IMG/VR virus record: IMGVR_UViG_3300022745_000103
Coordinates: 1-35,377 of that record
Source of the DNA: a virus
Length of the DNA stretch: 35,377 bases
Direction: 5' to 3' (one strand)
Numbering within the stretch: the first letter of the stretch is position 1; each line of letters opens with the position of its first letter. Of this stretch, positions 3 through 13,817 are shown in pieces. The translations under genes were made by a program, and so were the position numbers. The notes beneath the pieces are model-generated. The model ran no database searches and had not been told where the DNA came from. It saw nothing but the letters and a program-made list of their open reading frames with translations.

Positions 3-149
3 GTTGTGCTGCGTCAGAGCCGGGGCGGACGGGGGCAGCGGGCGGTGTTGGAGCCGGTGGTCTTGAGCGATGAGCAGGTCTCCAAATTCTCCATCACAGA
101 CTTACCCCGCCTACCCCGCGAAACCCCGCCGGGTGGGACGGCGGGGTAA
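3..149 (+). CDS. Possible 3' end of an upstream gene (partial)
   Basis: An open frame enters from the left edge and runs to a TAA at 147-149, giving 48 residues with no internal stop. It includes a basic stretch (RQSRGGRGQRAVLEP) and then SDEQVSKFSITDLPRLP. The basic and hydrophobic start faintly recalls the C-terminal tail of phage DnaB- or RecA-type helicases, but this is too short to assign and I give no function. The last 15-20 codons lie inside the GC-rich repeat cluster, so the end of the protein would be encoded by repeat sequence. It may simply be a chance open frame in GC-rich DNA. Confidence 0.35.
   Translation, partial: VVLRQSRGGRGQRAVLEPVVLSDEQVSKFSITDLPRLPRETPPGGTAG
123..147. 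repeat. 9-bp inverted repeat in the leader region
   Basis: ACCCCGCCG at 123-131 is the exact reverse complement of CGGCGGGGT at 139-147, with a 7-nt loop. It is one of three palindromes in the leader repeat cluster. No T-tract follows the 3' arm, so it does not look like an intrinsic terminator. Confidence 0.7.
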
Positions 150-164
150 AGGATAGGCGATGAA

Positions 165-205
165 AGAGAGTCATTATCGGTTACTCCGCCGATAATGATC
201 TCTCT
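165..205. repeat. Long stem-loop built on TCATTATCGG/CCGATAATGA
   Basis: TCATTATCGG at 171-180 is exactly complementary to CCGATAATGA at 189-198, around the 8-nt loop TTACTCCG, which is itself most of a cluster repeat unit. After a one-base bulge (T199) the stem continues, with AGAGAG (165-170) pairing with CTCTCT (200-205), for about 16 pairs in total. The flanks are AT-richer than the rest of the region. An operator dyad, packaging signal or transcript structure are all possible. Confidence 0.75.
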
Positions 206-279
206 ATAAGGCGGGCGGGGTTTCGGGCGGAGTTTACGGCGGGGTAGGAAAAGTAGTGTGTTTGTGCGTGGGGTTGCGG

Positions 280-310
280 TTTACTCCGCCGAACACTCCG
301 GCGGAGTAAA
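280..310. promoter_or_regulatory. Perfect 12-bp palindrome just before the small terminase gene
   Basis: TTTACTCCGCCG (280-291) and CGGCGGAGTAAA (299-310) are exact reverse complements separated by the 7-nt loop AACACTC. The 3' arm ends 21 nt before the preferred start at 332 and 11 nt before GGAG (322-325). Its position suggests either a protein-binding operator that controls terminase expression or an RNA hairpin affecting translation. No convincing -35/-10 pair could be placed in the same interval. Confidence 0.75.
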
Positions 311-331
311 GACGGTAAAATGGAGAGCGTT

Positions 332-883
332 ATGAGCATGAACGACAAGCGTAAGAAGGTGCCTGCGGTGGTGGGAACGGTCACAGACGTCAAGCCCAAG
401 ATCAATCCGTGGTTCAAGCGCGAGGGCTCGATTGAAGAGCTCTGCGGGTACGTCGCGCAGGGAGGGCACCTGGCAGGGTTCTGCCGGGAGAGGGGCTTGC
501 TGTACACCTCTGTGTCGGATTGGATTTACGGCAACGAGCAACGCTCGGTGCTGTACGCGCGCGCCCGGGAAGAGCGTGCCGAAGTCCTCGCCGACGAGAT
601 CGTCTCCATCAGCGATGAGGTGGCTGTTGAGACGAAACACGAAGGCGAGGAGGTCAAGCTGGTGCTGGATGCGACGGCGGTGGCACGCAACCGGCTGCGT
701 GTTGATGCACGCAAGTGGGCCGCTTCAAAGCTCAAGCCGAGGAAGTACGGCGACAAGATCACGCAGGAGCACACGGGTGCTGGCGGCGGGCCGATTACGC
801 TGGCCGCGCTGGACCTCAAGAACATGTCCGACAGCGAGCTGGCGCAGATGCAGGCGCTGCTCTCTAAGGCCTCCGGACAGTGA
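332..883 (+). CDS. terS: Terminase small subunit (Sf6 gp1-like)
   Basis: A 183-residue protein that probably recognises phage DNA and recruits the large terminase subunit for packaging. Residues about 31-66 form a helix-turn-helix-like segment (EELCGYVAQGG, then CRERGLLYTSVSDWI), in which a short variable loop precedes a recognition-type helix. Residues 74-98 (LYARAREERAEVLADEIVSI) carry the Arg/Glu-rich oligomerisation helix typical of Sf6-type small terminases, and residues 119-140 end in the familiar KWAASKLKPRKYGDK pattern. ATG codons lie in frame at 320, 332 and 338. I chose 332 because GGAG at 322-325 gives a 6-nt spacer, whereas 320 has no ribosome binding site. The stop overlaps the GTG start of the large subunit. 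The repeat cluster directly upstream is a candidate binding target. Confidence 0.9.
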   Translation: MSMNDKRKKVPAVVGTVTDVKPKINPWFKREGSIEELCGYVAQGGHLAGFCRERGLLYTSVSDWIYGNEQRSVLYARAREERAEVLADEIVSISDEVAVETKHEGEEVKLVLDATAVARNRLRVDARKWAASKLKPRKYGDKITQEHTGAGGGPITLAALDLKNMSDSELAQMQALLSKASGQ

Positions 884-2451
884 ACGGTCCGCTCGCCCCT
901 GCGGTGTTGCTGGACATGATCCGGCGCGAGCGGGCGCGGCGCGAGGCCTGCCGGGACCTGATGTCGTTCACGCGGCAGTGCTTCAACATCATTGAGCCGG
1001 GGCAGGACTTCCGCGACAACTGGCACCTGCACGTGATTGCGGAGCACTTGATGGCGGTGACGCGGGGTGACGTGCGCAACCTCGTCATCAACATCCCCCC
1101 GGGGTGTATGAAGTCAATCCTAACCTCCGTGGCGTGGCCCGCGTGGGAGTGGGCCAACGACCCCACGCTGCGCATCATGGGTGCGAGCTACGGCGTAGAG
1201 CTCGCCATTCGCGACGCCAGCAAGACCCGCGACATCCTGCTGTCCGACTGGTACCGGGAGAACTGGCCGCAGGTGCAGATCAAGGCGGGCGAGGATCAGA
1301 AGACCAAGTACGCGCTGACCGAGGGCGGCTGGCGCATGGCGACCTCGGTGGGCGGGCGGGCCACCGGCGAGCACCCAGACCGCAAGATCGTGGACGACCC
1401 CCACAACGCCAAGCAGGCCGAGAGCGACGCCGAGCGGGAGTCGGCGCTGGTGTGGTTTGACCGCACGCTCTCCACCCGGGGGCAGTCGCGCGGGGCGAGC
1501 ACCGTGGTCGTCATGCAGCGGCTGCACGAGCGTGACGTTACGGGGCACATCCTGGCCGACCTGACGGGCTACACCCATCTGTGCATCCCGATGGAGTACG
1601 ACGGGGTGCAGCGCAAGACCTTCCTGGGCACCTACGACCCCCGCACCGTGAAGGGTGAGCTGCTGTGGCCGGAGATGTTCGACGAGCACTCGGTCGTCGA
1701 GCTGAAGCAGCTGCTGGGTAGCTACGGCGCGGCGGGCCAGCTCGCACAGGACCCCGCCCCGGCTGAAGGCGGCATACTGAAGACCAAGCACTTCCGACTC
1801 TGGCCTGCGGCGGAGCGCAAGCCGCAGCTGGAATACGTGCTGCAGTCGTACGACACCGCATTCACCGAGAAGACCTCCGGCGACCCCACGGGGTGTGAGG
1901 TGTGGGGGGTCTTCACGCACAACGGCGAGCGCAACGCCATCCTGCTGGACGCCTGGGACGAGCACCTGTCCTACCCCGAGCTGCGCAAGCGAGCCATTGA
2001 AGACTGGACCGCCGAGTACGGCGGCGACTCCCGGGCGCAGGGCGGGATGATCGTCAAGCCCCGGCGTCCGGACCGTGTGCTCGTGGAGGCTAAGGCCTCC
2101 GGTCAGTCGCTGCTGCAGGACCTGAGGCTGGCCCGGGTGCCGGCAGTGGGTTATAATCCTGGCAATGCTGATAAGGTCGCCCGCGCTCATCAGGCTGCTC
2201 CCACGCTGGAGCTGGGCATCCTGTGGATTCCCGAATCAGCCAAGAACCCGGGGCAGCCGGTCAGTTGGGCTGAGCCGTTCCTGCGCCAGCTGGCCAAGTT
2301 CCCGGTGGCGGAGCATGATGAATACGTCGACTGCTTCACTCAGGCGGTCATCTACCTCAAGAACGACGGCTGGTTCCAGCTGCAGCGAGCCAAGGACATC
2401 GACACAGACCGTCCGCCCCCGCGCGAGCGGGTTAACCCTTACGGGGTGTGA
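880..2451 (+). CDS. terL: Terminase large subunit (ATPase and nuclease)
   Basis: A 523-residue packaging motor. The N-terminal ATPase shows a Walker A variant PPGCMKS at residues 73-79, and IVDDPHN at about 170-176 fits the Walker B region (D172, D173). The C-terminal RNase H-like nuclease contributes acidic residues D325 (SYDTAF), E403 (VEAKASGQ) and D480/D484 (HDEYVD), the usual order for headful and related terminases. It would cut concatemeric DNA and pump it through the portal. Translation starts at GTG 880, which overlaps the preceding TGA as GTGA and implies coupling. An alternative ATG at 916 lacks a better ribosome binding site. The length is normal for the family. Confidence 0.95.
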   Translation: MNGPLAPAVLLDMIRRERARREACRDLMSFTRQCFNIIEPGQDFRDNWHLHVIAEHLMAVTRGDVRNLVINIPPGCMKSILTSVAWPAWEWANDPTLRIMGASYGVELAIRDASKTRDILLSDWYRENWPQVQIKAGEDQKTKYALTEGGWRMATSVGGRATGEHPDRKIVDDPHNAKQAESDAERESALVWFDRTLSTRGQSRGASTVVVMQRLHERDVTGHILADLTGYTHLCIPMEYDGVQRKTFLGTYDPRTVKGELLWPEMFDEHSVVELKQLLGSYGAAGQLAQDPAPAEGGILKTKHFRLWPAAERKPQLEYVLQSYDTAFTEKTSGDPTGCEVWGVFTHNGERNAILLDAWDEHLSYPELRKRAIEDWTAEYGGDSRAQGGMIVKPRRPDRVLVEAKASGQSLLQDLRLARVPAVGYNPGNADKVARAHQAAPTLELGILWIPESAKNPGQPVSWAEPFLRQLAKFPVAEHDEYVDCFTQAVIYLKNDGWFQLQRAKDIDTDRPPPRERVNPYGV

Positions 2452-8717: not shown

Positions 8718-9392
8718 ATGAACTATGAAAAGCACTACGGCTTGCTGATAGAGCGAGCTCGGGCTAGAACGATAGAAGGGTACTCTGAAGAGCACCACGT
8801 TGTTCCTAAGTGTCTCGGCGGATCAAACGACCCGCTTAATCTGGTTTCTCTAACTCCGGAAGAACACTACCTGGCGCACCAGCTTCTATTCGAAATGAAC
8901 CCTGACAATGTTAAGCTGTTGTACGCGGTTACGTACATGTGTGCGCCTAGAAATCAAGGGCTTAGCAAGAACAAAATGTACGGATGGCTTAGAAGAAAGC
9001 TGTCTTTGGTTCAGTCTGAAAAGTTCTCGGGTCGGGTGTGGACAGACGAGCAGAACCGCGCTCGCTCCGAGGCGGCCAAAAACAATTGGCAAGACGAAAG
9101 CATTAAGGCTAGAATGCTTGAAAACATGTCTAAGCCTAGGAACTGGAGCGAAGACACTTTGAAAAGACACTCCCGCAGAACTTCTGAAATGCTCAGAGAG
9201 CTATGGAAAGATCCTAGCTATCGCGAAAAGCGAATAGCTAAGATGAAGGGAAGAAAGATGACCGATGAGCAACGCGCCGCTGTTTCAAAGCGGATGTCTG
9301 CACGAACGGTATCTGAAGAATCCATAAAGAAGATGCTTGAAACTAGGCGTCTAAACAAACTTAAAGCTGAAAAGGAGCTTTTACGTGTCTGA
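8718..9392 (+). CDS. HNH homing-type endonuclease
   Basis: A 224-residue putative free-standing HNH endonuclease. HHVVPKCLGGSNDPLNLVSL followed by TPEEHYLAH places H26/H27, N41 and H50 (with H54) in the HNH order. The C-terminal half has repeated basic helical units rich in Lys/Arg (WTDEQNRARSEAAKNNW, WSEDTLKRHSRRTSEML, MTDEQRAAVSKRMSAR, VSEESIKKMLETRRL), resembling the NUMOD-type DNA-binding modules of phage homing endonucleases. Codon use is clearly AT-richer than flanking genes, with many aaa, aag, tct and aga codons. The start has no good Shine-Dalgarno sequence. The last codons contain the AAAGGAG and GTG start of the next gene. This looks like a later insertion into the head module. Confidence 0.88.
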   Translation: MNYEKHYGLLIERARARTIEGYSEEHHVVPKCLGGSNDPLNLVSLTPEEHYLAHQLLFEMNPDNVKLLYAVTYMCAPRNQGLSKNKMYGWLRRKLSLVQSEKFSGRVWTDEQNRARSEAAKNNWQDESIKARMLENMSKPRNWSEDTLKRHSRRTSEMLRELWKDPSYREKRIAKMKGRKMTDEQRAAVSKRMSARTVSEESIKKMLETRRLNKLKAEKELLRV

Positions 9393-9765
9393 AGATCTAG
9401 CAAATGCTTTTCCGACTGTCGACCCCGGTATGCGCCCTCTGGGCTCGCGGGTCTTGGTTCAAATCAAGTCCGCGCGGGAGAAGACTAAAGGCGGAATCAT
9501 TCTCACGAATGAAGACCGCTCCACTGAGAAGTGGAACACGCAGATCGGCAAAGTGATCAGCGTCGGTCCCTTGGCCTTCCACAACCGCAACACTGCCGAA
9601 CTCTGGCCGGAAGGCGCATGGGTGCAAGGTGGTGAGTTCGTCCGGGTGCCGAAGTACGGCGGCGACCGGTTCGAAGTCGACGGCGCCCTGTTCGTTGTTT
9701 TCAACGACCTGGACCTGCTGGCAGTGGTCACCGCCGACCCGCTGCAAATCAAAGCGTTCTTCTGA
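9385..9765 (+). CDS. GroES-like co-chaperonin
   Basis: A 126-residue Cpn10/GroES-family protein. MRPLGSRVLVQIKSAREKTK corresponds to the GroES N-terminal strand, KTKGGIILTNED to the mobile-loop segment that docks on GroEL, and IGKVISVGPLA, FVRVPKYGGDRFEVDGALF and FNDLDLLAVV to the later beta strands and C-terminal strand. It is longer than bacterial GroES, with extra residues around HNRNTAELWPEGAWVQGGEF, as in other phage versions. By analogy with T4 gp31 it may modify host GroEL for folding of the capsid protein. No GroEL gene is present here. The start is GTG 9385, with AAAGGAG at 9371-9377 lying inside the HNH coding sequence and an 8-nt overlap with its end. Confidence 0.88.
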   Translation: MSEDLANAFPTVDPGMRPLGSRVLVQIKSAREKTKGGIILTNEDRSTEKWNTQIGKVISVGPLAFHNRNTAELWPEGAWVQGGEFVRVPKYGGDRFEVDGALFVVFNDLDLLAVVTADPLQIKAFF

Positions 9766-13215: not shown

Positions 13216-13292
13216 AGGGTTCCCAGCTCGTCAGACCGCGCCCTAGCGGACGATGCACAGACGGACGAGCAACTCGTGCATAGAGGATTATC

Positions 13293-13817
13293 ATGGCAAA
13301 CACGCATTTCTCAGGCCCGGTCAACTCCACCAACGGCTTCATCGGAGCCGTCACTGGCAACATCACGGGCAACGTCACGGGCAACGTCACGGGCAACGTC
13401 ACGGGCAACGTGGTCGGCGGCGTCACTGGCCCCATCACCAACTCCAACGTCACGGCGACCAAGACCGTCACGGCAGCCGAGTCGGGCACGACCTTCTTCC
13501 TGAACTCCACCACGGAGTTCGTCTCCACGCTCCCTGCGCCTGCGGCGGGCCTGTTCTACCGCTTCATCGTCGTGTCCGCGCCTTCGGGTGCCAGCTACAC
13601 GGTGGTGACGAACGCCAGCGCCAACATCATCAAGGGCCAACAGTACGTGGCTGCCAATGCGGCAGGCGACACGGGTACGGCAGACGACACCATCACCTTC
13701 GTGGACAGCCAGTCCGTGGCTGGGGATCGCGTCGACGTGTACAGCGACGGTACGAGCTGGTTTGCGTACGCCTTCAGCGCGGTTGCCGCAGGCATCACCT
13801 TCACGCAAGTCTCTTAA
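13293..13817 (+). CDS. Virion appendage protein with GNVT repeats
   Basis: A 174-residue Ser/Thr/Val/Gly-rich protein starting at an ATG behind an AGAGGA site. Residues about 18-42 repeat the tetrapeptide GNVT or GNIT, a pattern common in beta-solenoid or fibre shafts of phage appendages. The C-terminal part (FFLNSTTEFVSTLPAPAAGL, FYRFIVVSAPSGASYTVVTN, IKGQQYVAANAAGDT, DRVDVYSDGTSWFAYAF) resembles the compact beta-sandwich found at the tips of capsid fibres and decoration proteins. It is the first gene after the capsid terminator, so a head fibre or spike is plausible. Receptor specificity cannot be inferred. Confidence 0.65.
   Translation: MANTHFSGPVNSTNGFIGAVTGNITGNVTGNVTGNVTGNVVGGVTGPITNSNVTATKTVTAAESGTTFFLNSTTEFVSTLPAPAAGLFYRFIVVSAPSGASYTVVTNASANIIKGQQYVAANAAGDTGTADDTITFVDSQSVAGDRVDVYSDGTSWFAYAFSAVAAGITFTQVS
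13356..13409 (+). repeat. Tandem 12-bp repeat GGCAACGTCACG
   Basis: About 4.5 head-to-tail copies of GGCAACGTCACG encode the GNVT repeat of the appendage gene. The first copy differs by one base (ATC instead of GTC) and the last decays to GGCAACGTGGTC. The near-perfect nucleotide identity indicates recent expansion or slippage and a locus able to change length in frame. Confidence 0.9.

Follow-up and report, generated by a model that had tools for sequence, protein, structure and literature searches.

A repeat array in both orientations before the terminase genes of a phage, probably an iteron origin of replication read by a prim-pol

The oriV system of RSF1010 comprises RepC iterons, the RepA helicase, the RepB' primase and the hairpins ssiA and ssiB, one on each strand (PMC4434180). 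Iterons are understood here as repeated initiator-binding sites in both orientations, and a prim-pol as a primase-polymerase, a PriCT-2 domain, a RecA-like AAA_25 helicase and a winged helix in one chain. The origin of a prim-pol has been placed 3' of its gene, as in the stem-loop origin of pRN1 and the one also suggested for phage BIP-1, and in the satellite phage P4 the multifunctional primase-helicase alpha binds origin repeats through a winged helix (PMC4234260); a part in origin recognition has been proposed for the winged helix as well (PMC5862659). In PLE, a Vibrio satellite, origin iterons and the DNA-binding domain of the RepA initiator vary together, and the modules are swapped (PMC8263062). 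On the packaging side, pac of SPP1 surrounds the promoter and start of terS and has several TerS contact sites (PMC6316719). Few uncultured phages have a known origin, and a repeat array next to terminase genes is readily classed as a packaging site.

The window, by which we mean the whole analysed stretch, is a viral fragment of 35,377 bp from IMG/VR, and its left end cuts the gene upstream of such an array. The features of this end are as follows.

3-149, plus strand: 3' end of an open frame entering from the left (by translation)
103-148, both strands: left repeat block, with copies at 103-111 (+), 112-120 (+), 122-130 (+) and 140-148 (-)
123-131/139-147: 9-bp perfect palindrome
165-205, plus strand: central hairpin, consisting of AGAGAG and TCATTATCGG, the loop TTACTCCG, CCGATAATGA, a bulged T199 and CTCTCT
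214-246, minus strand: right repeat block, with cores at 214, 226 and 238 (spacing 12 bp)
280-291/299-310, both strands: 12-bp perfect inverted repeat of the full unit, TTTACTCCGCCG/CGGCGGAGTAAA, arms 7 bp apart
320-883, plus strand: terS, with candidate starts at 320, 332 and 338 (Pfam Sf6_terminase, E 3.8e-24; PHROG 1482)
880-2451, plus strand: terL (PHROG 38, E 1.1e-84)

The repeat cluster that the original prediction had placed before the terminase genes, with copies in both orientations, is confirmed. The exact core ACYCCGCC occurs nine times in 209 bp (102-310), four times on the plus strand and five times on the minus strand, and the 8-mer repeat score of this region is 31, whereas 2000 dinucleotide shuffles average 1.7 and reach at most 10. 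The other 35.2 kb of the window hold five exact cores. The full-length 12-mer, allowing up to two mismatches, gives 11 matches in the whole window against 4.8 expected, a weak enrichment, and the significance of the array lies in the clustering of its cores and not in this window-wide count. It had also been claimed that no comparable cluster exists elsewhere, which is true in kind but not in score: one stretch, 13276-13550, is more repetitive than the array (k-mer repetition 43 vs. 31), but its repeat (13293-13450) is in-frame coding sequence for GNVTGNVTGN and not comparable. All three stems described as perfect or nearly perfect palindromes are perfect (12, 9 and 10 bp), and the 21 nt given between the end of the last one at 310 and the terS start fit the ATG at 332.

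Within the array, plus-strand copies of the left block are spaced 9-10 bp start to start, a repeat copy supplies the TAA stop (147-149) of the upstream frame, and the inverted repeat at 280-310 holds the last unit copies before terS. The central hairpin is built on a perfect 10-bp palindrome (171-180/189-198), which AGAGAG/CTCTCT and one bulged T extend to 165-205, and a further repeat copy (182-190) lies in its loop and upper stem; the predicted fold of 151-215 has -25.8 kcal/mol and a z of -4.5. No AT-rich unwinding tract is obvious in this GC-rich array, and an Rfam scan of the window at the gathering threshold and a tRNA scan found nothing. An exact search of IMG/VR for the inverted unit gave no match, and a relaxed one returned two single terminator-like hairpins that are unrelated to the array. 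Further along the window, inspection by eye suggests a GroES-type co-chaperonin-like protein at 9385-9765 (CRP-901, a cultured TerL relative, likewise carries an annotated GroES) and a look-alike of HNH-type homing endonucleases inserted among the structural genes at 8718-9392.

The relatives, which are metagenomic sequences related to one another, keep the layout and the place of the array, while the word of the window is private to this phage. In each of the 53 loci where terS lies downstream of a prim-pol, the gap between the two genes contains a repeat cluster (criterion, a score of at least 12; gap median 33 vs. a median background maximum of 11), and in 49 of the 53, or in 30 of 32 once near-copies are removed, this cluster outscores every other window of its locus; those of L182 and L174 are weak, and diverged arrays could escape a choice based on k-mer score. 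A second search yielded 80 loci, and a search for nearer TerS relatives gave no additional contigs. The predicted anchoring at the boundary of the packaging module, on the terS side, is borne out, the array lying between prim-pol and terS. It usually ends within about 100 bp of the start of terS or of a small winged-helix gene before terS. Repeats are short and occur in both orientations, with a spacing of 9-12 bp, about one turn of the helix, within runs. They lie on either side of a hairpin, whose place is taken by an AT-rich tract in L007, L017 and L019. The earlier likening of the array to iterons or operators rather than to a simple tandem repeat is supported. The word itself varies from phage to phage (TAATCGTTCGG, TAACGGGTC, TAATCAAGTGG, CCTAAATAA and others). 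Among TerL relatives, in which the most repetitive stretch is again often the one before terS, the units include the following.

L005 (TerL 80% identical to that of the window): ATCGTTCGG
L006: TGATCAGTC
L010/L011: TAACGGGTC
L013: GGCGCAACC
L017: GACTATAAA
L019/L020: ATGGATCC

In L010/L011 a GIY-YIG-like endonuclease gene (by eye; about 1440-1985 in L010 coordinates) lies between array and terS.

Placement is tighter to terS than to prim-pol, which can sit 5 kb from the array and in G024 is on the opposite strand more than 10 kb away. Loci lacking terS in the fetched flank mostly have no array there, so the place of the array follows terS, and an early rule that would tie the array to prim-pol in every case was abandoned when, with more loci, its position proved to track terS. 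When loci were fetched by primase sequence alone, the top repeat cluster was often found at the primase stop codon (e.g. L098, L099, L105, L112 and L117-L121); no TerS match lies in the locus in L117-L121, which are distant primase contigs, and three types of distant primase-bearing contig have such an array at the stop codon without an adjacent TerS match. Arrays after distant primase-helicases may reflect a wider rule for AAA_25 helicases. Distant primase-helicases end at dual-orientation arrays in L118 (4592), L120 (4583) and L119 (3845); by eye, the primase of L118 is of the TOPRIM/zinc type, and the gene next to the array of L119 resembles a capsid gene. In CRP-901, which also encodes a prim-pol, neither terS nor prim-pol has a strong array nearby, and no prim-pol relatives were confirmed in bacterial genomes.

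Most arrays of the relatives contain a covarying hairpin. In an alignment of 18 array hairpins, 14 of 19 pairs show compensatory change, and the covariation score is 0.476 compared with 0.211±0.021 for shuffled and at most 0.203 for slid partners; as the hairpins were chosen for folding, the percentage paired is biased upward, and compensatory change is less so. The covariance model built from them, R1, finds the hairpin in most arrays outside its training set (E 1e-5 to 1e-19). The window has no hairpin of this family, its best R1 score being 7 bits, and its membership in the model was rejected. Its own hairpin at 165-205 occupies the same position; this hairpin has a 6-bp foot and a single base bulged out on the 3' side, and by eye it is similar to the inner stem found in many relatives. 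An Rfam scan of four relatives by E-value gave sub-threshold matches only, none of them convincing. The hairpin is inverted relative to terS in one clade (L129, L219, L220 and L221), which disfavours a 5' leader RNA and argues for a role as DNA. L098, L005, L105 and L112 share a second kind of small hairpin, e.g. CCCTCTCTCGAAGAGAGAGG, located between their last iterons and terS.

The gene before the array in relatives is often a prim-pol with Prim-Pol, PriCT-2 and AAA_25 domains, and its C-terminus is predicted to form a winged helix (AlphaFold, pLDDT 89.5). The ten best PDB matches of this C-terminus are weak and all winged-helix proteins, with MarR, PadR-like and replication-terminator proteins among the best. 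The motif QERKER, which defines a class, opens helix 3 of the predicted fold, and almost all ATCGTTCGG arrays are accompanied by a prim-pol carrying [S/A]-Q-[E/D]-R-[K/R]-E-R in its helix 3 region.

Mantel tests over 32 loci relate unit similarity most closely to the prim-pol helicase core (r=0.57) and the winged helix (0.51), followed by TerS (0.32) and TerL (0.22); the word thus travels with prim-pol more than with TerS or TerL. The winged-helix association persists after control for TerS (r=0.47, p<0.001), and that of TerS is r=0.17 (p=0.09) after control for the helicase and r=0.22 (p=0.03) after control for the winged helix. Because control for the helicase core leaves the winged helix little (r=0.14, p=0.13), the tests support the whole prim-pol and not the winged helix specifically, and the association of unit and winged helix is confounded by phylogeny. 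That the winged helix is the reader of the word is suggested by its fold and by the precedents named above.

Seven units were predicted from the winged-helix class before the sequence was fetched, of which five were exact (four ATCGTTCG and one TAAATGTTC) and two within one base (CCGGGCATTCGA found where GGGCTTTCGA was predicted in G047, and AACGTTCGG in place of ATCGTTCG in G037); this is a test of consistency and not an independent one, since the genomes are related to those behind the rule. A clean one-residue code from helix to word was considered as well, and it is weakened by L132, L133 and L145, which keep SQERKER with units altered in the 3' half, and by the partial Mantel test.

We consider it probable, though well short of certain, that the array is an iteron origin of replication arranged around a hairpin and read by the C-terminal winged helix of prim-pol. 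What the computation shows is the array, its conserved place and changing word, the covarying hairpin of the relatives and the association of the word with prim-pol rather than with TerS. In the proposed course, winged helices of prim-pol would bind the iterons and load the hexameric helicase onto them, unwinding would expose the hairpin as single-stranded DNA, and the primase domain would prime there; the word would change fast, in step with the replication protein. In the window, as expected of an origin, near-identical short sites in helical phase lie at one locus. The gene of the putative initiator is adjacent in many relatives and up to 5 kb or more away in others, the window being cut at this point, and covariation of site and putative initiator is seen in the relatives, with prim-pol taken as a whole. 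GC skew of the long relatives gives no pointer to an origin. As the window breaks off in the upstream gene and has no family hairpin, its own reader is one that we infer: the missing gene would be a prim-pol or an equivalent primase-helicase. Its 48-aa remnant gave no significant hit to the prim-pol profile (hmmsearch, -4.3 bits), being too short for recognition.

Iteron-bound prim-pol might also tune late transcription, given that the array borders directly on the terS operon and, in many relatives, on a late-type promoter. Taken as the sole function, control of late genes, with a winged-helix regulator (a standalone protein or prim-pol itself) switching the terS operon on and off at an operator, appears unlikely to us. 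The array adjoins terS in nearly all relatives, and TATAAT is enriched directly before terS (16 of 32 relatives vs. 75 of 1380 background windows). Standalone winged-helix genes akin to the prim-pol C-terminus lie between array and terS in L006 (745-1152), L014 (1477-2154, in tandem), L016 (1770-2195) and L178, and their products are candidate iteron-binding regulators. Such a gene is nevertheless absent from most relatives, some ten sites and an invertible covarying hairpin exceed the needs of a switch, the arrays of L117-L121 have no neighbouring terS operon to control, and no sigma-70-like promoter was found in the window. The two roles are compatible and not exclusive, and the TATAAT enrichment together with the standalone genes makes operator function likely enough to be kept as a second role of the origin.

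A pac or cos site, at which TerS rings would bind the repeats and TerL would cut nearby, was part of the original prediction and is, in our view, improbable. Adjacency to terS and terL is what would be expected of it, repeated sites would suit a ring of HTH motifs, and pac of SPP1 overlaps the promoter, ribosome site and 5' end of terS (PMC6316719). The words, however, do not follow TerS: the proteins of L010, L133 and L205 are 60-67% identical to that of the window, and yet the four phages have four units (TTTACYCCGCCG in the window, then TAACGGGTC, TAATCAAGTGG and TAATCGTTCGG), whereas a single unit, ATCGTTCGG, stands before many unrelated TerS N-termini. In addition, some arrays have no neighbouring terS, the unit tracks prim-pol better than either terminase subunit, and in several pac phages TerS binding is reported as weak or non-specific, with pac of P22 lying inside terS (PMC9611059). 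A pac site read by TerS is thus disfavoured, although other elements of the region, e.g. the hairpin or the 5' end of terS, may serve in packaging. Neutral or selfish repeats (REP/MITE-like or due to slippage) without phage function are very improbable, for although the units change fast, their short palindromes look like REP-type repeats and an intergenic gap tolerates repeats, clusters occur in every one of the comparable gaps and are largely restricted to them within the genome, unrelated words share one layout and a covarying hairpin, and knowing the replication protein allows the word to be predicted.

More tentatively, and with rather less confidence than we place in the origin itself, these arrays may represent an undescribed and widespread class of phage origin, in which iterons and a strand-specific covarying hairpin before terS are read by one prim-pol-helicase-winged-helix protein, the word drifting with the protein into lineage-specific lock-and-key pairs and replication possibly being coupled to late transcription. 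If so, one could locate the origin by eye in a common group of prim-pol phages, and nature would supply dozens of matched replication proteins and iteron words for studying how an initiator changes its DNA specificity. The hairpin, in turn, would lend itself as a substrate to work on start-site choice by prim-pol enzymes.

Among the described systems, the locus differs from pac of SPP1 in that unit and TerS are unlinked. The PLE origin has an initiator of the RepA_N family and iterons of about 30 bp, and belongs to a satellite rather than a phage. P4 alpha differs in its TOPRIM primase, and the layout and units of P4 are different too; binding by the winged helix is only predicted here. With RSF1010 the locus shares iterons and a hairpin, which in RSF1010 is recognised by the primase, and the prim-pol of the relatives has an AAA_25 RecA-fold helicase and an AEP-type primase. 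The RepA helicase of RSF1010 is of the AAA_25 kind. A profile search against the PDB found no sequence relation to the RSF1010 proteins, and what is divided among three proteins there is one chain here, with one main hairpin in place of one per strand. The likeness to pRN1 and BIP-1 extends to a prim-pol with a C-terminal winged helix and a hairpin in the 3' gap whose structure is kept in the relatives while its sequence changes, but those origins were reported without iterons, and here iterons dominate.
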